Source: Planctomycetota bacterium (lineage in GTDB: Bacteria; Planctomycetota; Phycisphaerae; FEN-1346). Taken from it: 42,203 nt of DNA. The stretch covers positions 1 to 42,203 of the forward strand of contig JAPLMO010000035.1 in assembly GCA_026386995.1 (NCBI GenBank), given 5' to 3'. Positions 6,784 to 36,387 of the stretch are shown in pieces (the first letter of the stretch is position 1; each line of letters opens with the position of its first letter). The position numbers and the translations under genes are program-made. Under the pieces are notes generated by a model that made no database searches, was not told where the DNA came from, and saw only the letters and a list, made by a program, of their open reading frames with translations.

Positions 6784-6975
6784 GGTACTGCGTCAGTCTC
6801 GGTGGCTGATGTGGCACGGCTGGCTTGCCCAGCCGTGGGGGGCGTCGCGAATCTTCGCCACGGCTCGGTGGCTGATGTGGCACGGCTGGCTTGCCCAGCC
6901 GTGGGGAGCGTCGCGAATCTTCGCCACGGCTGGACAAGCCAGCCGTGCCACATCCCCTATAACTGACGCAGTACC
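6784..6975. repeat. Nested palindromic element, family A, with partial second copy
   Basis: The core GTGGCACGGCTGGCTTGCCC appears at 6811 and again at 6877. The second copy is closed by its reverse complement near 6930-6953, and the first is a truncated unit sharing the spacer GCGTCGCGAATCTTCGCCAC. The whole is wrapped in an outer inverted pair, GGTACTGCGTCAGT and ACTGACGCAGTACC. Other family members lie at 8517-8594 and 32499-32576. Confidence 0.85.
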
Positions 6976-12803: not shown

Positions 12804-13730
12804 TTAACCTTTCCGCCCCGCTTCTCCCACCACCCGCGCAATATTTTCCCGGCTCACAGGCTGTATCAGCCCGCGCTCCGTGATGATCCCCGCCACCAGG
12901 TCCGCCGGCGTCACGTCGAACGCCGGACAGTAGACCTTCGCACCCGTCGGGGCGGTCTGCCGGCCGAAACCTTTTGTCACTTCCTCCGACCCGCGCTCTT
13001 CGATCGGTATCTCGTCGCCCGATTCTATCGCGAGGTCGAACGTGCTCGACGGCGCCGCCACGTAGAACGGCACGTCGTGGTGCTCGGCCAGCACCGCCAC
13101 GCCGTACGTGCCGATCTTGTTGGCCGTGTCGCCGTTGGCGGCGATGCGGTCGGCCCCGACGATCACCAGGTCCACTTTGCCCTGGCGCATGACGACCGCC
13201 GCCATGTTGTCGCAGATGAGCGTCACGTCGATGCCCGCCTGCTGCAGTTCCCACGCCGTCAGCCGCGACCCCTGCAGCAGCGGCCGCGTTTCGTCGGCGT
13301 AAACGCGGAACTTGCGGCCAAGTTCCTGCGCCCGGTAGAGCGGGGCAAGCTCGGCCAGCAGGGCCTCTTTAATCGCTCGCCCGCCGCGGCCGCGGTATTC
13401 CTGAACCGTGCGTTTCATCCGGTCGAGCGCCCAGAAGAGGTTGACGGCCGTCGGCCGGCTGGTGGCGAGGTACTCCGCGGCCTTCAGCGCCAGGGCGGCG
13501 ACTTCCTTCTCGTCGTCCGGGGCGCTCTGGATTCCTACGACCACGCCCATCGCCGCCGCCACCCCGATGGCCGGGGCGCCGCGCACTCGCAGCACCTTGA
13601 TCGCCTCCCACACCTCCTCGACCGTGCGGCAGGCGATTATCTTGAAGTCGGTCGGCAGCAGGGTCTGGTCGATGAGTTCCATGCGGCCGTCGAGGCCGCC
13701 CACCCAGCGGACGGTCTGTTCCAGGCTCAC
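12804..13730 (-). CDS. mtnA: S-methyl-5-thioribose-1-phosphate isomerase homologue with internal deletion
   Basis: 308 residues from GTG 13730, shorter than the roughly 345-370 usual for MtnA. The family converts methylthioribose-1-phosphate to methylthioribulose-1-phosphate in methionine salvage. Conserved blocks are present: ELIDQTLLPTDFK, VLRVRGAPAIGVAAAMGVVV, SRPTAVNLFWALDR, YADETRPLLQGSRLTAWELQ, VGADRIAANGDTANKIGTYG and VAAPSSTFD. Between residues 130 and 131 (near 13340), about 45-50 residues are missing in frame, including the CNAG segment that carries the catalytic Cys (Cys160 in B. subtilis). The Asp-containing GADRIAANGD is retained. The start overlaps the purE stop (GTGA). The gene may be inactive or an assembly artefact; a related sugar-phosphate isomerase role is less likely because relatives also need the Cys. 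Confidence 0.88.
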   Translation of the reverse strand: MSLEQTVRWVGGLDGRMELIDQTLLPTDFKIIACRTVEEVWEAIKVLRVRGAPAIGVAAAMGVVVGIQSAPDDEKEVAALALKAAEYLATSRPTAVNLFWALDRMKRTVQEYRGRGGRAIKEALLAELAPLYRAQELGRKFRVYADETRPLLQGSRLTAWELQQAGIDVTLICDNMAAVVMRQGKVDLVIVGADRIAANGDTANKIGTYGVAVLAEHHDVPFYVAAPSSTFDLAIESGDEIPIEERGSEEVTKGFGRQTAPTGAKVYCPAFDVTPADLVAGIITERGLIQPVSRENIARVVGEAGRKG

Positions 13731-14242
13731 GGGGCGTTCCCTGCGTTCTCGTCTGCGATGGCCACGCGCTCGGCCAGGCGGGCCTTGTACTGGAGGACCT
13801 TGTCGCGCAGGACCGCATCCGTCCCGGCCAAAATCTGGGCCGCAAGGATGGCCGCGTTGACCGGCCCGGCCTTTCCGACGGCCACGGTGGCCACCGGTAT
13901 GCCGCTCGGCATCTGGACGATTGAAAGCAGGCTGTCCATGCCGCCCATGACGCCGCTGGGCATCGGCACGCCGATGACGGGCAGGGGCGTCAAACTCGCC
14001 AGCACCCCCGGCAGATGTGCCGCGCCCCCGGCCGCCCCGATGATGACCCGCAGGCCCCGGCCTGCGGCCGTTGTGGCGTACTCGTGGGCCGCATTGGGCG
14101 TCCGGTGCGCCGAGATGACCCGCAGTTCGTGCGGTATCCCGAACTCCTTCAACGTGGCCACGCAGGGCCGCATCGCTTCCAGGTCGGAATCGCTGCCCAG
14201 AACGATGCCGACGAGCGGCTGAGGTATCTTCTTGGGGCTCAC
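13727..14242 (-). CDS. purE: N5-carboxyaminoimidazole ribonucleotide mutase
   Basis: 171 residues from GTG 14242, which follows GGAGG at a good distance. It catalyses N5-CAIR to CAIR in de novo purine synthesis. It carries the PurE signatures GIVLGSDSDLEAMRPC, VISAHRTPNAAHEYA, GAAGGAAHLPGVLASLTPLP and GVPMPSGVMGGMDSLLSIVQ. The length fits bacterial class I PurE. No purK is nearby. The downstream mtnA homologue starts within its stop codon, so the two share a transcript. Confidence 0.96.
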   Translation of the reverse strand: MSPKKIPQPLVGIVLGSDSDLEAMRPCVATLKEFGIPHELRVISAHRTPNAAHEYATTAAGRGLRVIIGAAGGAAHLPGVLASLTPLPVIGVPMPSGVMGGMDSLLSIVQMPSGIPVATVAVGKAGPVNAAILAAQILAGTDAVLRDKVLQYKARLAERVAIADENAGNAP

Positions 14243-15057
14243 AGGCTTTCCTCCAGAAGGGCCGAAGGGGAGTATAGGGCAGGGGGGCGAGAACGTCAAC
14301 AGGTACGCAACGGCGGGAATCGGGATTGGGGAATCGGGATTCGGGAATCGGGTCGAAGAGTCGCCGTGGCGACATTCGGGATTCGGGAATCGGGATTCGG
14401 ACAACGGCCCGCGGCCGTTTGTTTAGCCGCCCATTTTAATGGGCGCGTGTTCGCGGGCAACGGCAACGGCTTTAACCGGTCGCCACGGTGACTGAACTAC
14501 GAACGCCGGGAACGGTCGCCGCGGCGACTAAACTCCGAACGCGGATTGGGCGAGAAACGGCGGCGGCCGTTAACTTGAAACCTGAAACTTTGAACTGCCG
14601 TTTTCGCCCCAGCGGGGCGGCGGACTGTAGCCGCGGGTGAAGCACCGGCCGCTCACGCAGCGGGCGGTGCGCAACCCGTGGAAAAGTTCGTGTTTCAACA
14701 CATCCGCCCTGAAAGGGCGGAGGAATCGACGGCACAGGTGTCCTTTCATCGGCCCAAAAATCCCCTTCGCCCCGCCGGGGCTCCAAAGCAAGGTAGGAAA
14801 AAGGGGTCGCGCTTGCCGGCCTACCACGGGCTCGCGCACCGTGGCTAGAAATCAGTCTTGCCCCTCCGGGGCCGCGGGCGGAATCATGGTGTACGTCACA
14901 GTAACTCCATTATGCCTTGTTGAATATTCAATATTCTCCGTGCCGTTGTGCACGTAGGGGCAGCCCCGTGTGGCTGCCCTGCGCCTTGCGGGCTGCGCCT
15001 GAAAATTGGTATTGTCCCCCGAATTCCCCCCGAATTCGGCGCCAGTACCAGCGAGGA
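14243..15057. other. Gene-free repeat block upstream of purE
   Basis: No supportable gene. 14324-14403 is a heptamer-type array of GGGATTC/GGGAATC units. 14586-14860 contains members of the hairpin family seen as an array at 25.5-26.1 kb (CGCCCTGAAAGGGCG, CCCCGCCGGGGCTCCAA, CCACGGGCTCGCGCACCGTG). It bounds the helicase gene on its 3' side. Confidence 0.7.
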
Positions 15058-18000
15058 TCATTGCCCGCCTGGCTCCGATTCTGCCGCCTCCCGGTGCTCT
15101 CTAAGCGCCGCTTGATAGACGCGCTGCAGGTATGGTCGCATCACCTCACCTTCTCCTTGTGTCATCAAGACAGACCATTCCTCGAAGTCGAGCATCCCAT
15201 GCTTGAGGTACAGTCCTCCGATTTCGACCATAAGCGAGAAAGTCTCAGCATCGACCTCTTTCACATCTTGGCAGTTCGAGTTGCCATGTCCCTCGGTGCC
15301 TATTCCGCAAGCCTGAGGCGCGGCGGGATCGCCATCAGCATCGTCGTCGGAGAAGAGTGACCCCTGAATTGGTCCCCGAGTGCCCTCTTCCAGAGATGTG
15401 TGTCCCCTGAAACGCTTAGGATTTGCTACCGGAGCAATCCCAAAGAGTTTGTCGAGCCTGCGCAACTCCTTCTTGGGCACTCTCTCCCGCATCTTCGGCA
15501 GACGGAGGTGCATAGGGGCCACACTCTGATGATGATGGCGCTTCTCAACGCACCGCCATGCGGGTTTGCCGCCCCACTCACCGTATTCCACCTCCCTGCC
15601 ACAGTTCGAGCATACGATGACTCCACCCTTAATGGGCGGCTGGTCAATGTCGCGCCGATAACAACAGTCTTCCCTCATACAGCGCCAGTAGAAGGGCTTG
15701 CGGTCTCCTTCGCTCGCGACCATCTCACCGTCGCAAATCGGGCATACTGGCGGTCCGGCATCATATTCGCCAACAAGGTCGTCTAGCCGCAAAGTGCCTG
15801 CGAAATCCTTGACGACCTCCCTGCTTTCCCGGCGTTCCATAATCTCTTGCGTGTCGCTGAAACTGAGCGGGTTAAGCGAGCCCGACCACAGGATATTGTC
15901 ATCAATGAAGATGAGTTTCTCGTGCATGCCTCGCTTATGCACCACAACAACACCCCAGTCGCTCAGCGCCTTCTCTAGCGCGCGGTACCCAGGCACTTCT
16001 TTTTTATTCCGGTCACCGTGAGTCTTGGTGACAACATAGACCCGGACTTGTCGCTCTATCGCCGCCCGAATCTGGGGTTCGAGCAGGGCAAGCCTGGCTT
16101 GCGTGATGAAGGCTGAGTAGATCACTATCCTGCTCGCGGCGCGAGCCAGGTCCCCGCGCAGTACGGGGAAGAACCGTTCCTGGGTCACCACAAGCCTTGT
16201 AGCCTGTGGTTCCACATCTCCGCCTAGCACCAGACTCTGAGCTTTCGCCGCACGGGCCGATAGCCCAGTGGGAACGACCTCGACTGCACTCACTCGTGGA
16301 TAGTGGGCCACGAGGAACGGTATGAGTTTTGCCCCCATGAAGGCCCGCTTCGCACGCTTGACATTGTAGTCGAAGTCGCCGACTACCACCAAGCGGCGTC
16401 TGGCCCTGGTCAGTGCCACATTAAGAAGGCGTTTGTTGGTTTCGTCCCGTTCGGGCATGAACAAGCCCACGCGCCAGTGCGGCTCATCGTTGACCAAGTC
16501 CAGAATGACCACATCGGCTTCCGACCCCTGGAAGCTGTGTGCAGTGCCCGCCAACACTTCACCTGCAAGCCCCTGCTTACGCAGCAGAAGCTCAAGCAGT
16601 CTGGCGTGGGGCCGGTAGGGACAGACTATTAGGATGCGCGGGTCATGCCCCACTTGAAACTCTGGGCGGTCACGACGCAGCAGTTGTTCCGCGATGTCCA
16701 CACAGATAGTAGCCGATAGGAAGTTGAGCCTGCTTGATCTTGCTGCCCTTGGTACGCTCGTCACCCACGCGCCAAGAGGACCCGTATCCACCAGGAGGAC
16801 TGGCTCATCGTAGCCCCAATCACGCCGATACCAGTCCGTAAGGTTGCCGTCGGACTTGGTCATGTCGTCATCCCACAGTCGGCCCTCGTAGATCAGCTCA
16901 TTGGGAATTGCACTAATCTGTGGATGCATGCGATACTGCCTTCGCAAGATCACCACACGGTCTGGTGCCGCGTCGGGATTGGTCAGTACGGCCTCTTCGA
17001 AGATATCACGGCCGAGCCATTTTAAGGCTAAGGGGTGCTTGGAGATTACAATCGGCGGCAGTTGCTTGAAATCCCCAACTACTACAGCGTTGCAGTCGGC
17101 CAAACCAGCAGCCACCCACAATGCCGGTATAGGGGCCATTGATGCCTCGTCGAGGACAACCGTATCAAAGCGCCGCTTCTGGATTGAATCCCGCAAGTAG
17201 GCCCGGGTCAGCGTGGTGGCTACCACGGTTGCGTCCGCGATAACGAGTTCCTCTACCCGCTTGAGAGCCTCCTCGATGTCTCGGGTCTGGGCATCAATTG
17301 CGATGATGCGCTCGTTAAGCCGAATACGGTCGTCTAGCATCGTGTTTAGATCGCAGCCCCGGACTTCGGATAACGCCCGTTCGCACGCGGCGCGAGCGGC
17401 CACGAGCATCTTTTCGGCCGGCCCAGGAAGTTCTTCTGTCAGGTTCCACTCACGCAAGACCGCCAGCCGCGCCTCTAGCAACTGCTCCAAATCAGGCCTG
17501 CTCTTGCCACATTCTCGCATCAGTTGGAAACCCCTCGCGCGTACCTCGGCCAACGCGGCGGCGTTTTCATTGGCTTTCTGGATCACCTCCTCTGGTCCAT
17601 CCGGGTAGTCATCGAAGAAGATTTGAATCACAGCTGCACATAGCGCACGCACAGCAGTCAGATCGTGAAGATTGTGGTTAAGCCGGTTTATTTCTGCTTG
17701 AAGGGACTCGAAAACATTCCGGCTTTCGTTTACAACTTGCTGTTGAACATGAGATTCGGGAATGTTAGCATACGGTTGGAGTTTCTTTTGCAACTCAACC
17801 TTCTTTGCCAACAGTTGTTCGGCCCCGGCAAGGCTCTCATTCAACGCCTGGACGCGGTCCCAAGCCGACTTGACCCCGGCTCGGAAATTAGCGACTATCG
17901 GCCCGAGTGATTCAGGGGAGGGTAATCCCCGCCACAGACGCGTAAGCTTGCCCACCGATTGAGCATCGGCGTGAAGCGCCTCTGCCCTAGCAAGCCGAGC

Positions 18001-19311
18001 GCTGATTCCTTCATGCTCCTGTCGCGCCTTCTCTTGTGCTACGCGGGTTTGCTCAACTCGTTGGGTCAGCACGTCAACAGGCGGAAGGTCACGTGCGCGG
18101 CCTCGAAGTGGCGCTATCTCCTCGGCTTTGGCCATGATCTGCTCCGCCTCGGCCAGTCTTCTCTTAGCCTCGGCCACCTCAGACCCAGCCGCCGCGCATC
18201 GGTCAGTAGTCTCTGCGATGTCCTTCTCAAGACGGGCCAACTCGGTCATATTCCGTTGGGCTTCACTAGCAGCACTCGCGGCAGCAGCCAACTGCGTAGC
18301 GGTGTCAGCGAGATGCGATTCCTCTGCACGCGCGTTTTCCAAGTCGGCTTCCATTGTTTGGACTTCGCCGAGTTTGCGCGTCATCTCACCGAGATCGGTT
18401 TGAGCTTCGGACAACCACTCGCAAATATCTATGGCGCGGCAAAGACCCCTCACCTCTTCGGCCAGCCTTGCCCGCTCAATACTTAACGTCTCTCGGCGTC
18501 CAGCCAGTTCCTCCGACCGATGGTCAACGTGCGTCTGCAGCAAGAGATCGGGACAGTTGGCAATCCGCTGGTCCTTTGGGTCTCCGACACGCAGCACGCG
18601 GCCTTGGCTAAGAAGATCGGGGGCCAGGTATTGCTTGATGTAATGGAGGGCGCCATCCACTGCAATGTTAGTATGCGATACGAGGAGGACGGACCTGCTG
18701 CACTTGAGAAGTTGGCCTGCAATGGCACCAATCGTGCGGCTCTTGCCGGTGCCGGGCGGCCCCCAGATAAAGGTCGTATTGCGTCCCAAACTCGAAGCAA
18801 CAGCCGCGCACTGATCGCTATTGAGACAGAGTGCTGCCAGATCAACTAGTGCGGGTTCCCCCGAGGCGGGCAATGCCCCTCTCACCCGTTCGCCCACTAC
18901 GTTCGGCAATTGGGCGTGACCCTCAATGCGTTCGATCAGTTTCCGCATGAGAAATGTCAGATTGCTTTGAAGACGGGCGACAGGGACAAACACACCGATG
19001 TCTTGGGGAACACTCAGCGTGACTGCCAAACCATCAACTGAAAGAATGGTCACTTCAACTGGTGGTGAGCCAGGCAGATAAAGATCGCCGGGTGCGTCGC
19101 CCGGCAGATTGAGAGCGTTCTCTATATCGAAAACGTACTGGTAACTGGCACCAACCTGCGCAATGCGGCGGCCATTGGCAAGCGGCACTGCGGCGCTGGA
19201 CTCGCTACGGCTGGCGGCTTCGATCTCTTCCTGAAGAGCAGTGCGGAACTCAGACAGAATGCCGCCAAGCGGAACATCGTCCCGGCGCGATTTTTCGAAC
19301 GGCCTCCGCAT
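15058..19311 (-). CDS. UPF1-like SF1 helicase fused to a PLD-family nuclease and zinc ribbons
   Basis: About 1417 residues from ATG 19311; the frame is open to 19569, but the first ~20 codons there lie in a short-period repeat, so the longer start is doubtful. Residues 184-191 are Walker A (GPPGTGKS). Residues about 265-690 are an Ala/Glu/Arg-rich coiled coil inserted in the helicase. Then come Walker B LDEAS (~721), GDFKQLPP (~746), RRQYRMHPQI (~790), TAHSFQGSEADVV (~923) and NVALTRARRR (~964), the SF1 motif set. Residues ~1045-1165 are a PLD-type domain with one HKD motif (HEKLIFID, ~1130). Two zinc ribbons follow (CPIC...C..DC ~1190-1216 and CSNC...C ~1234-1254). It is visibly less GC-rich than its neighbours and bounded by repeats, consistent with horizontal acquisition. 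A role in anti-phage defence or nucleic-acid processing is inference. Confidence 0.85.
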   Translation of the reverse strand: MRRPFEKSRRDDVPLGGILSEFRTALQEEIEAASRSESSAAVPLANGRRIAQVGASYQYVFDIENALNLPGDAPGDLYLPGSPPVEVTILSVDGLAVTLSVPQDIGVFVPVARLQSNLTFLMRKLIERIEGHAQLPNVVGERVRGALPASGEPALVDLAALCLNSDQCAAVASSLGRNTTFIWGPPGTGKSRTIGAIAGQLLKCSRSVLLVSHTNIAVDGALHYIKQYLAPDLLSQGRVLRVGDPKDQRIANCPDLLLQTHVDHRSEELAGRRETLSIERARLAEEVRGLCRAIDICEWLSEAQTDLGEMTRKLGEVQTMEADLENARAEESHLADTATQLAAAASAASEAQRNMTELARLEKDIAETTDRCAAAGSEVAEAKRRLAEAEQIMAKAEEIAPLRGRARDLPPVDVLTQRVEQTRVAQEKARQEHEGISARLARAEALHADAQSVGKLTRLWRGLPSPESLGPIVANFRAGVKSAWDRVQALNESLAGAEQLLAKKVELQKKLQPYANIPESHVQQQVVNESRNVFESLQAEINRLNHNLHDLTAVRALCAAVIQIFFDDYPDGPEEVIQKANENAAALAEVRARGFQLMRECGKSRPDLEQLLEARLAVLREWNLTEELPGPAEKMLVAARAACERALSEVRGCDLNTMLDDRIRLNERIIAIDAQTRDIEEALKRVEELVIADATVVATTLTRAYLRDSIQKRRFDTVVLDEASMAPIPALWVAAGLADCNAVVVGDFKQLPPIVISKHPLALKWLGRDIFEEAVLTNPDAAPDRVVILRRQYRMHPQISAIPNELIYEGRLWDDDMTKSDGNLTDWYRRDWGYDEPVLLVDTGPLGAWVTSVPRAARSSRLNFLSATICVDIAEQLLRRDRPEFQVGHDPRILIVCPYRPHARLLELLLRKQGLAGEVLAGTAHSFQGSEADVVILDLVNDEPHWRVGLFMPERDETNKRLLNVALTRARRRLVVVGDFDYNVKRAKRAFMGAKLIPFLVAHYPRVSAVEVVPTGLSARAAKAQSLVLGGDVEPQATRLVVTQERFFPVLRGDLARAASRIVIYSAFITQARLALLEPQIRAAIERQVRVYVVTKTHGDRNKKEVPGYRALEKALSDWGVVVVHKRGMHEKLIFIDDNILWSGSLNPLSFSDTQEIMERRESREVVKDFAGTLRLDDLVGEYDAGPPVCPICDGEMVASEGDRKPFYWRCMREDCCYRRDIDQPPIKGGVIVCSNCGREVEYGEWGGKPAWRCVEKRHHHQSVAPMHLRLPKMRERVPKKELRRLDKLFGIAPVANPKRFRGHTSLEEGTRGPIQGSLFSDDDADGDPAAPQACGIGTEGHGNSNCQDVKEVDAETFSLMVEIGGLYLKHGMLDFEEWSVLMTQGEGEVMRPYLQRVYQAALREHREAAESEPGGQ

Positions 19312-19504
19312 CTGAATCCCCCAAGAAGCGTCCCGAGATGCTCTTATCTGTGCAAACTGCACTTGCGTCAAGGGCAAAATGAGACGTGGCAAGGGGCGGG
19401 CCGCTAACCATATTTTCCCCCGTGGCGGGAGGACTCGGGCTCGGTCGCGATCTTCACGATGCAGGGCGACTACTTCTCGGCGTGTGCCGCCTTGAAACGC
19501 TTGT

Positions 19505-19730
19505 ACGCCTCCAGGTTTCAAATTCAAAGTTAACGGCCAGGGAAAGACAGTTTCAGGTTCAAAGTTCAAGGTTCAAAGTTAACGGCCAAGGAAAGGCAGT
19601 TTCAGGTTTCAAGTTCAAGGTTCAAAGTTGACGGCCAACGAGACAGAGGCGGCAACCGGCAACCGGGCAACGGCACGGCCACGGACAACGGCGGCAACCG
19701 GCAGTTCAAAGTTGAAGGTTCAAAGTTCAA
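19505..19730. repeat. Heptamer-type repeat array (GTTCAAA/GTTCAAG units)
   Basis: Repeated GTTCAAAGTTCAAGGTTCAA motifs, interspersed with TAACGGCCA.GGAAAG.CAG units, show a dominant 7-bp period. The region overlaps the 5' extension of the helicase ORF. A second block at 19650-19700 repeats GGCAACC-type heptamers. Confidence 0.75.
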
Positions 19731-19805
19731 GGGCGGTTCCCGCCGTTCAGCGCGATTGGAGACGTATGGGGTCAGGAGCCTTACGGATAGGGCTCCAGAC
19801 CCCCA

Positions 19806-19930
19806 GTGCTGCGGTTCCCGAATCCCGATTCCCGGTTCTCGAATCCCGTTCCCGCCTTCCGGTTCCCCGTTCCCGGTTCCCCGGCCTGCCCGCCAGGCCT
19901 AAGGGCGGGTTCCCGGTTCCTGACTCCCGA
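19806..19930. repeat. Heptamer-type repeat array (GAATCCC/GATTCCC units)
   Basis: A degenerate tandem of CGAATCC, CGATTCC, CGGTTCC and CGTTCC. It is the complement-strand version of the array at 14324-14403, on the other side of the helicase gene. Confidence 0.7.
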
Positions 19931-20005
19931 ATCCCGACCTCACGGCTCAGGCACGACTGCCAAAATGGCAGTCCCTGCGGTCGCGGGAGGGGGGCGAATC
20001 GCCCG

Positions 20006-20084
20006 AAATCAGGGACAGCGCCAACGCCGCCCGGCCCCCCGACCCGGCCCGCCGAAACCGCTTGGCGCTGTCCCTGATTTTTTT
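20006..20084. repeat. Long hairpin with perfect 19-bp arms and T-run
   Basis: AAATCAGGGACAGCGCCAA at 20006-20024 is exactly complementary to 20062-20080, with a 37-nt GC-rich loop. The right arm runs into seven T. It has the form of an intrinsic terminator on the plus strand, but no plus-strand gene precedes it; an insertion element or structured RNA end is possible. Confidence 0.7.
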
Positions 20085-20486: not shown

Positions 20487-22139
20487 GTGGCAAAAGGGAA
20501 ACATTCCGGCCATGCCGCGCCGTCTCCGCCGCCAGGGGCGGGGCCGCTATGGCTCTTGGCCGAGTTGGCCGAGGAGTTGGGGACCCTAGACGACCCGGTA
20601 TCCCTCCAGCAAGAGGTCCTGGAACGTGCCCTGACGATATTCCACTGCCGCAGCGGGGCCTTTTGCCCGATGGACGCCGAGACCGGCCGCATACGCCTCG
20701 GGCCGATCAGCGGCAGCGTCATGAACCTTCGGCCGGAGGAAATCCTGGCGGCAGAGCCCGTCCGCGTGGCCGTTATCGAGCAGCGGAGGCCCCTGGTGAT
20801 GGCCGACGCGTCGGTCCTGAGTTCCGGGCCGGCCGGCTGGCGCGGCATGGCGGTCATTCCGCTGATGGGGTCGGAAGGGCTGGAGGCGCTCCTCGTGATC
20901 GGCGATCTGGCGGAGGATCACCAGTTTGGCGACTCGGATACGGCGCTGATGGCCGTCCTCGGCCGCATGGCGGCCTCCGCGCTGGGGATGCGTCTTGCGA
21001 TCCGCGAGTTCCGCCGCGAGGTCGGCCAGCGCATGACCGACATGGTCGCCCAACTTAACCGGACGGCGGCGGAGTTGGAGCGCGTCAAGACCTTTGCCGA
21101 CGATTTCTTCGAGTCCGTCCCGTTCGGCATCATCCTCTTTGACCGCGAGTTTCGGGTGACGTTCCACAACCACGCCGCCGACCGCCTGTGGCCCGAGGAC
21201 CGCTCGGTCCTGGCGGCCGCGCGGCGGACAAGCATCGCCCAGAGCGATCCGGATTGGGAACAGGGTCTCAAGGACGTCGTCAATATGCAGCGCGCGTGGC
21301 TTGCCGAGGCCGTGGCGGTGGAGCGCCCGAACCAGGAGGCCGTGCGCGTGAACCTCTGGTGTGCGCCCCTGGTGAGCGAGCAGCAGAGCCTGGTGGGCGG
21401 CGTGCTGATCGTCGAGGACGTGTCGCAGCGCGTCCAGATGGAGCGGCGGCTGGCGGTCTCGGAGCGCCTGGCCGGCGTGGGGCGCCTTGCGGCGATGGTG
21501 GCCCATGAGATCAACAATCCCCTGGACGGGATCATCCGCCTCGTGAACCTCTCGCGGCGGACCGGGGCCGGTTCGTGCGATCCCAAGGTGGACGAGTATC
21601 TTGCGGAAGCCCACAAGGGCCTGATGCGGCTGGTGACGATCGTGCGGGACCTGCTGGATTTCTCGCGGAGCGCCTCGGGGGCCGTCGACCCGATGCCCCT
21701 CCGGGAGACGCTGACCGAAGCCGCGCGGGCCATGGCGCAGGTCGCCGAGCGGGCGGGCGTCCGCGTGAGCATCGACTGCGCGGCCGATCTGCCACCCCTC
21801 AGGAGCGCGACGCTATATCACGTCGTCCTGAACCTCATCAAGAACGCCATCGAGGCGATGCCGGGCGGCGGGCTTATCGAGGTGGCGGCACACAGGCTGA
21901 CCGACGCGGTCGTCGTGTCGGTGGCCGACTCGGGGCCGGGCATCCCGCCGGACGTGCTGGCGCACCTCTTCGAGCCGTTCTTCAGCCTCAAGGCCACCGG
22001 CAAGGGGACCGGCCTGGGCCTGGTGATCTGCAAGGACCTGATCGAGAAGCAGGGCGGAAGCATCACGGCAGCGAACCGCCCCGAGGGAGGGGCCGTGTTT
22101 ACGGTACGGATTCCTGTTACGCGGGCGGGGCGGGCTTAA
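20487..22139 (+). CDS. GAF-PAS sensor histidine kinase (NtrB type)
   Basis: 550 residues from GTG 20487 behind GAGGG; an upstream ATG extension at 20391 overlaps the promoter. There are no membrane helices, so it is cytoplasmic. Residues about 20-170 form a GAF-like sensor; 200-235 a linker helix; 205-310 a PAS domain (FFESVPFGIILFDREFRVTF, then HNHAADRLW); 325-395 the dimerisation domain with phosphoacceptor His340 in VAHEINNPLDGI; and 440-545 the ATPase (NLIKNAIEAM N box, DSGPGIP G1, GKGTGLGLVI G2). An NtrC-type regulator follows 177 bp downstream on the same strand, surely its partner. The signal is unknown. Confidence 0.93.
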   Translation: MAKGKHSGHAAPSPPPGAGPLWLLAELAEELGTLDDPVSLQQEVLERALTIFHCRSGAFCPMDAETGRIRLGPISGSVMNLRPEEILAAEPVRVAVIEQRRPLVMADASVLSSGPAGWRGMAVIPLMGSEGLEALLVIGDLAEDHQFGDSDTALMAVLGRMAASALGMRLAIREFRREVGQRMTDMVAQLNRTAAELERVKTFADDFFESVPFGIILFDREFRVTFHNHAADRLWPEDRSVLAAARRTSIAQSDPDWEQGLKDVVNMQRAWLAEAVAVERPNQEAVRVNLWCAPLVSEQQSLVGGVLIVEDVSQRVQMERRLAVSERLAGVGRLAAMVAHEINNPLDGIIRLVNLSRRTGAGSCDPKVDEYLAEAHKGLMRLVTIVRDLLDFSRSASGAVDPMPLRETLTEAARAMAQVAERAGVRVSIDCAADLPPLRSATLYHVVLNLIKNAIEAMPGGGLIEVAAHRLTDAVVVSVADSGPGIPPDVLAHLFEPFFSLKATGKGTGLGLVICKDLIEKQGGSITAANRPEGGAVFTVRIPVTRAGRA

Positions 22140-22153
22140 AATGACTAATGTCT

Positions 22154-22292
22154 AATGACTAATCAAAAAGCAAACGGCAAACGGCAATGACTAATCAAAC
22201 GGCAAAAGGCAAACGACAAGGGCGAATGCGGCCGCGGTGCGCTTCTTTTCATTAGTCATTGCCGTTTGCAGTTTGCCTTTTGATTGGTCATT
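22154..22292. repeat. Inverted heptamer-repeat hairpin between kinase and regulator genes
   Basis: Arms of 42 nt (22154-22195 and 22251-22292) match at 39 positions. Each arm is built of AATGACT/AATCAAA and AAACGGC heptamers, and ATGACTAATGTCTA precedes the left arm. A 55-nt centre separates them. It ends 14 nt before the ribosome site of the regulator gene. Confidence 0.8.
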
Positions 22293-25523: not shown

Positions 25524-26126
25524 GAGGCGACTGTGAGTAGCCACGGTGCGTAAGCCCGTGGAACGGTGGCGGAAAACGAACATCCTTTTTCCTTCATTCT
25601 TTTTAGCCCCGGCGGGGCGACTGAAACGCCGTTCAATCGCCCCTTAAGGGGCTCCAATGAAAGAAGGAAGAAAGAGATTGCGGCGTTCGTTTACCACGGG
25701 CTTGCGCCCCGTGGCTACTCACAATCGCCCTCGACAGGGCTCCAACGGCATAACAACAACACACGCGCTTACGGCAACCCTTTCCACGGGCTCGCGCACC
25801 GTGGCTACTCACAATCGCCCCTGGCGGGGCTCCAACAACATGACAACAGCACTCACGCTTACGGCAACCCTTTCCACGGGCTCGCGCACCGTGGCTACTG
25901 GCAAACGCCCCGTTGGGGCTTTCACGGAAAGGAGGAAGAGAGCGTTTGCGGCGATGGGTTTCCACGGGTCCGCCAATACGGCGGGCGGATCTTCGGCTCG
26001 CGCACCGTGGCTACTCACAAACGCCCCGTTGGGGCTGCCAAAGAAAGGAGGAAGAGAGGGTTTGCGGCGATGGGTTACCCCGGGTCCGCCAGAACGGCGG
26101 GCGGATCTTAGACCCGCGCCCGGGGC
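25524..26126. repeat. Imperfect tandem array of ~90-bp hairpin units
   Basis: Units begin CCACGGGCTCGCGCACCGTG and continue GCTACTCACAAACGCCCC and GGGGCTCCAA. Unit starts at 25693, 25784, 25874 and 25962 are spaced 91, 90 and 88 bp, with a diverged unit near 26078 and an inverted piece at 25524-25562. Each unit has two hairpins (CCACGG/CCGTGG and GCCCC/GGGGC). The spaces between cores are themselves conserved (GAAAGGAGGAAGAGAG, GTTTGCGGCGATGGGTT), so this is not a CRISPR array. Single relatives lie at 14586-14860. Confidence 0.8.
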
Positions 26127-26263
26127 TAGAGCAGTTCACGCTTGCTTGTAGCCCCTCGCGCGGCGGGTAGTCCTGCCCGCCGCGCGGAATGTCGAGAGGC
26201 GGCGCGGTGGGCAAGACTGCCCACCGCGCACATACTCGCTACAGTCAAGCGTGAACTGCTATA
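26127..26263. repeat. MITE-like element, family E, with 26-bp terminal inverted repeats
   Basis: Ends 26127-26152 and 26238-26263 match at 23 of 26 positions (AGCAGTTCACGCTTG ... TGTAGC). Two GC-rich hairpins (GCGCGGCGGGTAG..CTGCCCGCCGCGC and GCGCGGTGGGCA..TGCCCACCGCGC) lie inside. Confidence 0.8.
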
Positions 26264-32498: not shown

Positions 32499-32647
32499 TG
32501 TGGCACGGCTGGCTTGTCCAGCCGTGGCGGATGGCCCGCGAGGGTTCCCACGGCTGGACAAGCCAGCCGTGCCACATTCCACAATCCAGGGCGCACATAA
32601 CTGAGCCAGCCGTGTCACATTCCACAATCCAGGGCGCACATAACTGG
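32499..32647. repeat. Palindromic element, family A, copy 3, plus a 43-bp direct repeat
   Basis: Arms TGTGGCACGGCTGGCTTGTC and complement (32499-32576). A 43-bp unit starting GCCAGCCGTG at 32562 is repeated at 32605 with one mismatch and contains CACATTCCACAATCCAGGGC. It lies upstream of gap. Confidence 0.85.
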
Positions 32648-34072: not shown

Positions 34073-35372
34073 GTGGCCAAGAAAACGCTCGACCAACTGT
34101 CGATGAAGGGCAAACGGGTCCTGGTGCGCGTCGATTTCAACGTTCCCCTGGACGACAATGGCAACGTGACCGATGACCGGCGCATCCGCATGGCGCTGCC
34201 GACGATCAAGTGCGCGTCGGCGGCAGGCGGCCGGGTCATCCTGATGAGCCACCTCGGGCGCGCTCCCGACGATCAAGTGCGCGTCGGCGGCGGGCGGCCG
34301 GGTCATCCTGATGAGCCATCTCGGGCGGCCGGACGGCAAGCCGGACCCCGCCATGAGCATGAAGCCGACGGCCGTCAGCCTGGCGGGCCTCCTGGGCCGC
34401 GAGGTCCGGTTCGCCCCGGACTGCATCGGGCCGAAGGTCGAGAAGATGGTCGCGTCCATGAAGGACGGCGAGATCCTCGTCCTGGAGAACCTGCGGTTCC
34501 ATGCGGGCGAAGAGGCGAACGATCCCGAGTTCACGGCCGCTCTGCGGAACCTGGCCGACGTGTATGTCAACGACGCCTTCGGCACCGCGCACCGCAAGCA
34601 CGCCTCGACGTACGGCGTTGCGGCGCTGATGCCCCAGGGGTCGCGGGCCGTGGGCTTTTTGATCGAGAAGGAACTGAAGTTCCTCGGCGAGGCCCTCGAG
34701 AAGCCCGTGCGTCCGTTCGTGGCCGTCCTCGGCGGCGCAAAGGTCTCGGACAAGATCGCGGTCATCGAAAACCTGCTAGGCAAGTGCGACCGCCTGCTCA
34801 TTGGCGGCGCGATGGCCTACGTGTTCATGGTGGCGCGCGGCGAGAATGTCGGCAAGTCGAAGGTCGAGCGCGAGGTCGTCAAGAAGAAGGGCGGCTCGAA
34901 GAAGGACATGATCGCCATCGCGGCCAGGCTGCTCGAGAAGATCAAGGCCGCCAAGTGCGAGGTCATCTTCCCGGTGGACCACCTCGTGGCGAAGGCATTT
35001 GCCGCTGATGCCGAGACCGACGTTCAATCGCCCGACATCCAGGACGGCTGGATCGGCCTGGACATCGGCCCCGAGACGATCGGCCTGTACTGCGAAAAAC
35101 TCGCCGACGCCAAGACGGTAGTGTGGAACGGCCCGATGGGTGTCTTCGAGATGGCGGCGTTCGCCGAGGGCAGCAAGGCCCTGTGCGCGGCGATGGCCAA
35201 GATCGCGGGGCAGGGCGGCACGGTGGTCGTCGGCGGCGGCGATACGGCGGCGGCCGTCGAGAAGTTCGGCCTGGCCGAGAAGATGACCCACATCTCCACC
35301 GGCGGCGGCGCGAGTCTGGAATTCCTCGAAGGCAAGCCCTTCGAGACGATCAACATCCTCGACGACGCGTAA
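34073..35372 (+). pseudogene. pgk: Phosphoglycerate kinase, frameshifted by a 67-bp tandem duplication
   Basis: Starts GTG 34073 (GGGAG upstream). The first frame reads [30 protein letters not shown] and VILMSHLGR, then goes out of frame at about 34262. The rest lies in another frame from about 34280 to 35372 ([80 protein letters not shown]). Positions 34201-34267 and 34268-34334 are an imperfect tandem repeat with a 67-bp period (not a multiple of 3). Deleting one copy restores a normal PGK. It transfers phosphate between 1,3-bisphosphoglycerate and ADP and is expected to be essential, so an assembly chimera is likely. Confidence 0.95.
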
Positions 35373-36220: not shown

Positions 36221-36387
36221 ATGGGTGGCATGGTCACGCTTTTGCGTGACCATGTCGCACTGACGGGCCAGGCGCTGTTGGAGGCGCATGGTCACGCTTT
36301 TGCGTGACCATGTCGCACTGACGGGCCAGGCGCTGTTGGAGGCGCATGGTCACGCAAAAGCGTGACCATGCCACCCGGCGATAAACA
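36209..36387. repeat. MITE-like palindromic element, family C, copy 2 with internal duplication
   Basis: Ends TGTTTAGCGTAGATGGGTGG and CCACCCGGCGATAAACA are imperfect inverted repeats. Inside, the CATGGTCACGCTTTTGCGTG unit occurs at 36229 and 36287, and the closing arm at 36345, an exact 58-bp spacing. It supplies the rpe stop codon and ends 55 bp before accD. Confidence 0.85.

Follow-up and report, generated by a model that had tools for sequence, protein, structure and literature searches.

The window analysed here, a 42,203-nucleotide stretch of Planctomycetota DNA (contig JAPLMO010000035.1), carries on its minus strand one gene that fuses a UPF1-like superfamily 1 (SF1) helicase, a long coiled-coil rod, a phospholipase D (PLD) domain and two zinc ribbons. 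On balance, and with moderate confidence, we propose that its product is a single-protein, horizontally moving nucleic-acid surveillance nuclease, which resembles type II of Mokosh, a system reportedly named by Millman et al. in 2022, and most likely destroys invading phage or plasmid DNA or RNA. The basis of this proposal is the domain order, the intact motifs, the predicted folds, the conservation, a foreign composition and a patchy spread, all of which were observed. New here is that the rod exists in only two lengths.

The initial annotation had described a single minus-strand open reading frame (ORF) with the SF1/UPF1 motif set, a coiled coil of about 400 residues between the early motifs and Walker B, one HKD motif in a PLD-type domain and two C-terminal zinc ribbons. 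This outline holds, with a coil of about 425 residues. The start does not, as the TTG at 19569 chosen before lies 86 codons too early. The ATG at 19311 is the most likely start, because family conservation in the alignment begins about residue 12 downstream of it. From the N-terminus, the protein runs through an OB domain and stalk, Walker A, motif Ia, the long helical insert, Walker B, RecA2, the PLD domain and the two ribbons:

15058..19311 (-), helicase-coiled coil-PLD-zinc ribbon gene, product of 1417 aa
18832..19278 (-), OB/1B barrel plus stalk at the N-terminus, residues 12-160 (homologue P0080 is modelled with strands at 40-115; Foldseek)
18739..18762 (-), Walker A, GPPGTGKS (pattern G[PA]PGTGK[TS])
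17242..18519 (-), coiled-coil hairpin from motif Ia to Walker B, residues ~265-690 (P0080 model and alignment)
18037..18198 (-), long-form extra segment 1, 54 residues (372-425; alignment)
17920..17940 (-), conserved rod tip RLWRGLP (R458, W460, L463 and P464 invariant in a 42-row alignment)
17692..17853 (-), long-form extra segment 2, 54 residues (487-540; alignment)
17140..17151 (-), Walker B, DEAS
16357..17004 (-), RecA2 domain (AAA_12; Pfam)
15772..16194 (-), PLD domain (PLDc_2 match; model of high confidence, given below; PLD folds in structure search)
15901-15924 (-), single HKD, HEKLIFID, within the PLD domain
15664..15744 (-), zinc ribbon 1 (C1190, C1193, C1211, C1216; 42-row alignment)
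15532..15612 (-), zinc ribbon 2 (C1234, C1237, C1254, H1260; 42-row alignment)

Membership in the UPF1-like SF1 helicases is indicated by Pfam AAA_11 (111.5 bits) and AAA_12 (107.7 bits), both above cut-off, and by an OB barrel ahead of RecA1 in the homologue model. PLDc_2 matches with 29.6 bits (cut-off 27). Sequence matches in the PDB are UPF1, SETX/Sen1, DNA2 and IGHMBP2/SMUBP-2. The modelled homologue, P0080 (1197 aa, same plan), reached a predicted local distance difference test (pLDDT) score of 83.8 and a predicted template modelling (pTM) score of 0.60 with 113 sequences. Its model has a beta-barrel at 40-115, rod helices at 254-331, 334-393, 408-457 and 461-509 (block pLDDT 73-92, with the minimum near the tip), the PLD domain at ~925-1048 and the ribbons beyond 1076. 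Foldseek placed UPF1-like helicases at the top of its matches, UPF1, Dna2 and SETX being the closest folds. For the C-terminal 326 residues of the window protein itself, modelled at pLDDT 84.8, NucT, Nuc and Zucchini were among the nearest folds of the PLD part. One HKD together with this predicted fold fits the single-HKD PLD enzymes, of which NucT, Nuc and Zucchini act as dimers on single strands.

These features are conserved. There were 735 matches in a protein search (E <= 1e-3), and family counts use the 120 listed ones, the window's own row included. Among these matches listed, the other rows are 47-61% identical to the window protein at varying coverage; Walker A is present in all 120, the Walker B pattern in 117, the strict single HKD in 116 and the strict double ribbon in 108. 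The 42-row alignment shows no substitution at the HKD histidine and lysine or at seven of the eight ribbon ligands, and the HKD aspartate and C1193 are conserved at >=90%. AAA_11, AAA_12 and PLDc_2, the combination for which the initial annotation had proposed a search, all match in 36 of 36 family members scanned.

We infer translocation, dimerisation, substrate and defence role along the following lines. The UPF1-like motor would load on single-stranded nucleic acid via its RecA and OB domains and translocate with ATP, and the zinc ribbons, likely binding nucleic acid, could supply grip or recognition. Two molecules may pair up, with the long rod and its conserved RxWxxLP tip as the simplest means; the invariance of the tip would make it a natural dimer contact. 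Two PLD halves, contributing one HKD each, would then build one cutting site. That a UPF1-type motor is joined to a PLD half-site suggests that cutting takes place only when two molecules meet.

The rod was measured from Walker A to the tip motif [RK]xWxxLP and from there to Walker B, in the 114 of the 120 family rows that have the needed motifs. The first arm spans either 218-224 or 272-277 residues, and the second either 206-208 or 261-262. In 86 rows both arms are short, in 28 both are long, and no row is mixed. The alignment, in which 116 of the 120 rows were used, traces the difference to two stretches of exactly 54 columns that only the long forms have, one on either side of a 61-column tip. 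The window protein is a long form, with 54 additional residues per arm, or about 80 angstroms by helix rise; so is a separately found relative, L138 (arms 273/261). Among long forms, the extra segments are 27-30% identical, compared with 31% over the remaining coil. In distant relatives the rods are shorter and do not follow the 54+54 step (167-172/124-130 in L001, L002, L003 and L093; 215/134 in L092).

Equal growth of both arms is expected, because an antiparallel hairpin demands matching. The surprising part is that there are just two lengths and that the family has switched repeatedly between them, neither of which the hairpin demands. An origin of the long rod as one clade was rejected on the helicase core (approximately unbiased (AU) test, p 4.4e-5) and, with weaker significance, on the coil columns common to both forms (p 0.013), using 58 of 116 rows (29 long, and 29 of 87 short). 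Parsimony gave 12 switches, at least four of them on starred branches; the count is rough, because it comes from quick trees with long branches. Exchange of the rod as a cassette, which predicts that the long forms make up one clade on the coil tree, was not borne out: the coil tree gave seven changes and the C-terminal tree nine. A speculative and quite improbable extension is that the rod acts as a ruler or hook of quantised length, which would join two half-site nucleases at the tip and set the spacing between two motors or two cuts, the paired inserts being exchanged between lineages to change reach for different invaders. The paired two-step length provides a natural experiment on whether a coil dimerises PLD halves and measures distance. 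Moreover, the coupled change at two distant sites offers a clear-cut example of selection for matched arm lengths in an antiparallel coiled coil.

The gene looks foreign in origin by its composition. Its GC content is 57.8%, and 62.1% at third codon positions (GC3), compared with 63.1-67.9% and 73.1-91.5% for ten neighbours, and its codon-usage distance is 0.187 versus 0.057-0.165. The lower GC noted by the initial annotation was thus borne out, and the codon-usage profile called for at the time sets the gene apart as well. Gene GC also falls below that of the neighbours at L138, L132, L003 and L002, that is, in five of eight loci with the window. The window aspartokinase has relatives of up to 92% identity, the first named ones being Planctomycetota at 76%; for the helicase, the best-scoring relative stands at 59%. 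Named members among the listed rows come from Thorarchaeota, Ignavibacteria, WOR-3, Actinomycetia and Planctomycetota, labels of metagenome-assembled genomes in which binning errors are possible. In genome samples at E <= 1e-60, a match was found in 1 of 392 genomes from the phylum of a Planctomycetaceae locus, in 2 of 251 from the phylum of a Chloroflexi locus, and in 2 of 68 Hydrogenedentota, one of them full-length at 42% identity (L137/L138). Samples of 395, 39 and 235 genomes had no match at stricter limits (the first two with P0082 as query). These counts are lower bounds, because no more than two candidates per genome were scored in the large draws (four of the five outside Hydrogenedentota); an empty draw that lacks a known positive carries no weight. 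A genome-contig scan with two general motif-I/Ia patterns retrieved at least 80 distant relatives, with best segments at 24-35% identity.

Several observations weigh against a defence nuclease. Gene GC is not lowered at L133, L001 and L004, three of the eight loci. Phage records gave no match, the viral-contig scan had one P-loop fragment among the matches listed, and 55 plasmid records match partially, none covering more than 80% of the query. In the fold search, lipid-type PLDs, PLD3 and PssA reach scores similar to those of the nucleases, with TrmBL2 and FAM83 lower, so that the PLD fold alone is no proof of a nuclease; the predicted nuclease role rests on the helicase context and the likeness to the Mokosh type II protein MkoC. 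The genomic context points the same way. Enrichment in defence islands, which the initial annotation suggested looking for, was not seen: PADLOC found no convincing defence gene among 29 neighbours from seven loci (10 ORFs of the window and 19 at L001-L004, L132 and L133), the neighbours being chosen by ORF length and judgement rather than by a gene caller. The sole matches were a response regulator (RtcR-type models), a GlgB-type protein (32 bits) and a DndA/SspA-type protein (111 bits). By Pfam only, the 42% relative in L138 sits between Clp/glycosyltransferase and EF-G genes. The positive control was itself weak, as just three of ten neighbours at two MkoC loci matched (best 61 bits), and for this reason the lack of defence neighbours is weak evidence. 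A role in defence stays putative, since the scanned neighbours hold no convincing defence genes.

The same contexts would suit a housekeeping or stress enzyme for nucleic-acid processing, engaged in Dna2- or UPF1-like end processing or in RNA surveillance and spread sideways for reasons other than defence. Core-like neighbours at the window, L138, L133, L132 and L003, the closest folds and the missing defence partners all agree with it. However, the gene is rare and patchy among the genomes sampled, with a full-length 42% relative in one of 68 Hydrogenedentota and none so close in the five other draws, and its GC is foreign. We regard this explanation as possible, though rather unlikely. Vertically inherited homologues in mainly core contexts, or a composition equal to the neighbours, had been named in advance as arguments against a defence gene; the contexts are indeed core-like, but inheritance looks patchy and GC is foreign in five of the eight loci. 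Of the earlier suggestion of a solitary anti-phage or DNA-processing protein, what stands is a solitary protein for nucleic-acid processing, with a single-HKD PLD and a probable horizontal origin, whereas the anti-phage part is unproven and the neighbours are core-like.

The preferred reading, a surveillance nuclease of Mokosh type II character, draws on a known design. As described in two papers (PMC11672841, PMC10013915), a single Mokosh type II gene encodes an RNA helicase at the N-terminus and a PLD nuclease at the C-terminus. By contrasting the window gene with the separate proteins of DISARM, the initial annotation overlooked this precedent. Like the window protein, MkoC joins an N-terminal SF1 (COG1112/UPF1-like) helicase and a C-terminal PLD in one chain, with one HKD in L124 and a large insert of 398-454 residues between Walker A and B in L124, L125 and L094. 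All 36 family members scanned are matched by the PADLOC models for MkoA and MkoC (E <= 1e-10), and in a profile comparison two MkoC proteins can be aligned with the family over the stretch reaching from Walker B through the PLD domain. On the other side, identity over this stretch is 24%, no profile alignment extends before Walker B, and L124 lacks a CxxC pair, unlike the window protein with its ribbons. L125 and L094 have no HKD pattern, and the PLD comparison draws on L124/L134 only, because the other of the two aligned proteins, L125/L135, has no PLD part. A W-R-x-L resemblance to the rod tip in L125, absent by that pattern in L124 and L094, was left unused.

Could the window protein then be a true MkoC that gained zinc ribbons? 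The identical domain order and the matches to the MkoC model in all members scanned would agree with this, and the AU test did not reject a joint clade of the window family and MkoC (p 0.438, with 2-3 MkoC rows) or one that also includes the distant helicase-PLD rows (p 0.296). Yet the window protein scores 134 bits against the MkoC model (best stretch 772-1113 of 1136, ~30% of the model), versus 1008 bits for L124 over the full length and 955 bits for L125 over the helicase part; a full-length match at the level of high-scoring members was not obtained. The alignment gap before Walker B also speaks against it, as do the helicase cores: in a 56-row tree 21 rows of the window family form a single starred clade, and MkoC is on a starred branch of its own. 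Nearest to the family in that tree are six distant helicase-PLD proteins and PLD-less Bacillus helicases, and MkoA groups with general helicases. Of the 120 family rows, that tree includes 21; 13 of 23 general helicases were omitted, as were L006, L010 and other loci that did not fit the motif patterns. A second tree, built without the long branches L094, L130 and L026, sets MkoC, the window family and its near kin apart from MkoA and the general helicases with a support of 91, not starred. We consider true membership unlikely. Judged from sequence, the window protein may work like Mokosh type II, but the similarity is remote and membership is not established. The single-protein helicase-PLD design is thereby extended beyond Mokosh to a distinct zinc-ribbon clade in several phyla, which fits current Mokosh models only partly.

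Two observations concern relatives of the family. The ~750-aa Bacillus helicases of L005, L007 and L008, near the window family, lack rod and PLD and possibly represent an ancestral or reduced form. In a Bacillota relative (L011:181-3488), the helicase and PLD parts are spread over two overlapping frames, and the gene is split, frameshifted or affected by a sequencing error.

Other known systems share parts of the design. Dna2, UPF1 and SETX have the UPF1-like SF1 core and OB barrel but no PLD, and the Dna2 nuclease belongs to another family. The type IV restriction enzyme SauUSI has its PLD near the N-terminus (chain residues 9-192), unlike the window protein, and its motor is SF2. DISARM (DrmA/DrmC) also brings together helicase and PLD functions, in separate proteins and with another helicase family; the window protein reaches only 22 bits with the DrmC model, and no DrmA, DrmB or DrmC was found among the 10 window ORFs scanned with PADLOC. 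In CoCoNuT systems, CnuH of types II and III is described as a nuclease-coupled, UPF1-like helicase with a coiled-coil insert after Walker A, most types have an OB fold, and type III-C has a PLD. The window protein resembles CnuH in its UPF1-like helicase and helical insert after Walker A, but has the PLD fused at the C-terminus, and no CnuB/CnuC (McrB/McrC) was found among 20 window ORFs scanned with Pfam. In open-licence literature we found no description of a helicase-PLD-zinc ribbon fusion, CoCoNuT being nearest, and nothing pairing 'mokosh' with 'coiled-coil'.

As the initial annotation had noticed, complementary heptamer repeats lie on both sides of the gene. The blocks are nested and inverted, with arms of up to 40 nt at 80%:

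14314..14400 (+), CGGGATT/CGGGAAT heptamer block on the left
14564..14595 (+), GTTAACTTGAAAC block on the left, an inverted counterpart of the right block
19508..19735 (+), block on the right with GTTCAAAG heptamer and 49-nt repeat
19812..19937 (+), AATCCCG heptamer block on the right, the left block in reverse complement

Allowing up to three mismatches, CGGGAATCGGGATT has 15 copies, 12 of them within the two flanks (against 5.85 expected across the window), and GTTCAAAGTTCAAAG has 12, all in the flanks (0.49 expected). Nested inverted blocks around a gene of foreign GC could suggest a mobile element with the gene as cargo, which we hold to be very unlikely, given that the blocks are imperfect tandem heptamers with no defined termini, that no transposase was found among the 20 window ORFs scanned with Pfam, that the L138 gene has no such blocks beside it and that the exact 12-13-nt units are missing from the 139 loci compared. 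In addition, a passage of PMC4692102 describes GGGAATC heptamer tracts as an intergenic repeat in Xanthomonas. Because of this precedent and of other heptamers elsewhere in the window, such as an AATGACT/GCAAACG tract at 22134-22222, between a histidine kinase and its regulator and away from the helicase gene, we tentatively read the blocks as a host intergenic feature rather than element ends. A pattern of three GGGAATC units plus GGG occurs in 2 of 119 genomes from the phylum of the Planctomycetaceae locus, an uninformative count.

Next to the right blocks, positions 20006-20080 hold an inverted repeat whose 19-nt arms match perfectly (AAATCAGGGACAGCGCCAA) around a loop of 37 nt (folding z -2.5). 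Its core has no second copy within the window, and the hairpin may be a repetitive extragenic palindromic (REP)-like element or a terminator.

By Pfam, the window neighbours include a semialdehyde dehydrogenase, an aspartokinase, an alcohol dehydrogenase, an IF-2B-family gene, a histidine kinase and an NtrC-type regulator. The helicase gene does not stand alone on its strand, as had been thought, since the following gene shares it:

12804-14375 (-), IF-2B-family gene

Elsewhere, a 67-bp tandem duplication (34193-34327, 95% matches) overlaps the start of a phosphoglycerate kinase ORF, whose Pfam match begins at model position 53; the gene may be disrupted or mis-assembled. Further tandem duplications, with units of 43-116 bp in about two copies, are located at 6798-6931, 25694-26128, 32561-32646 and 36228-36370.
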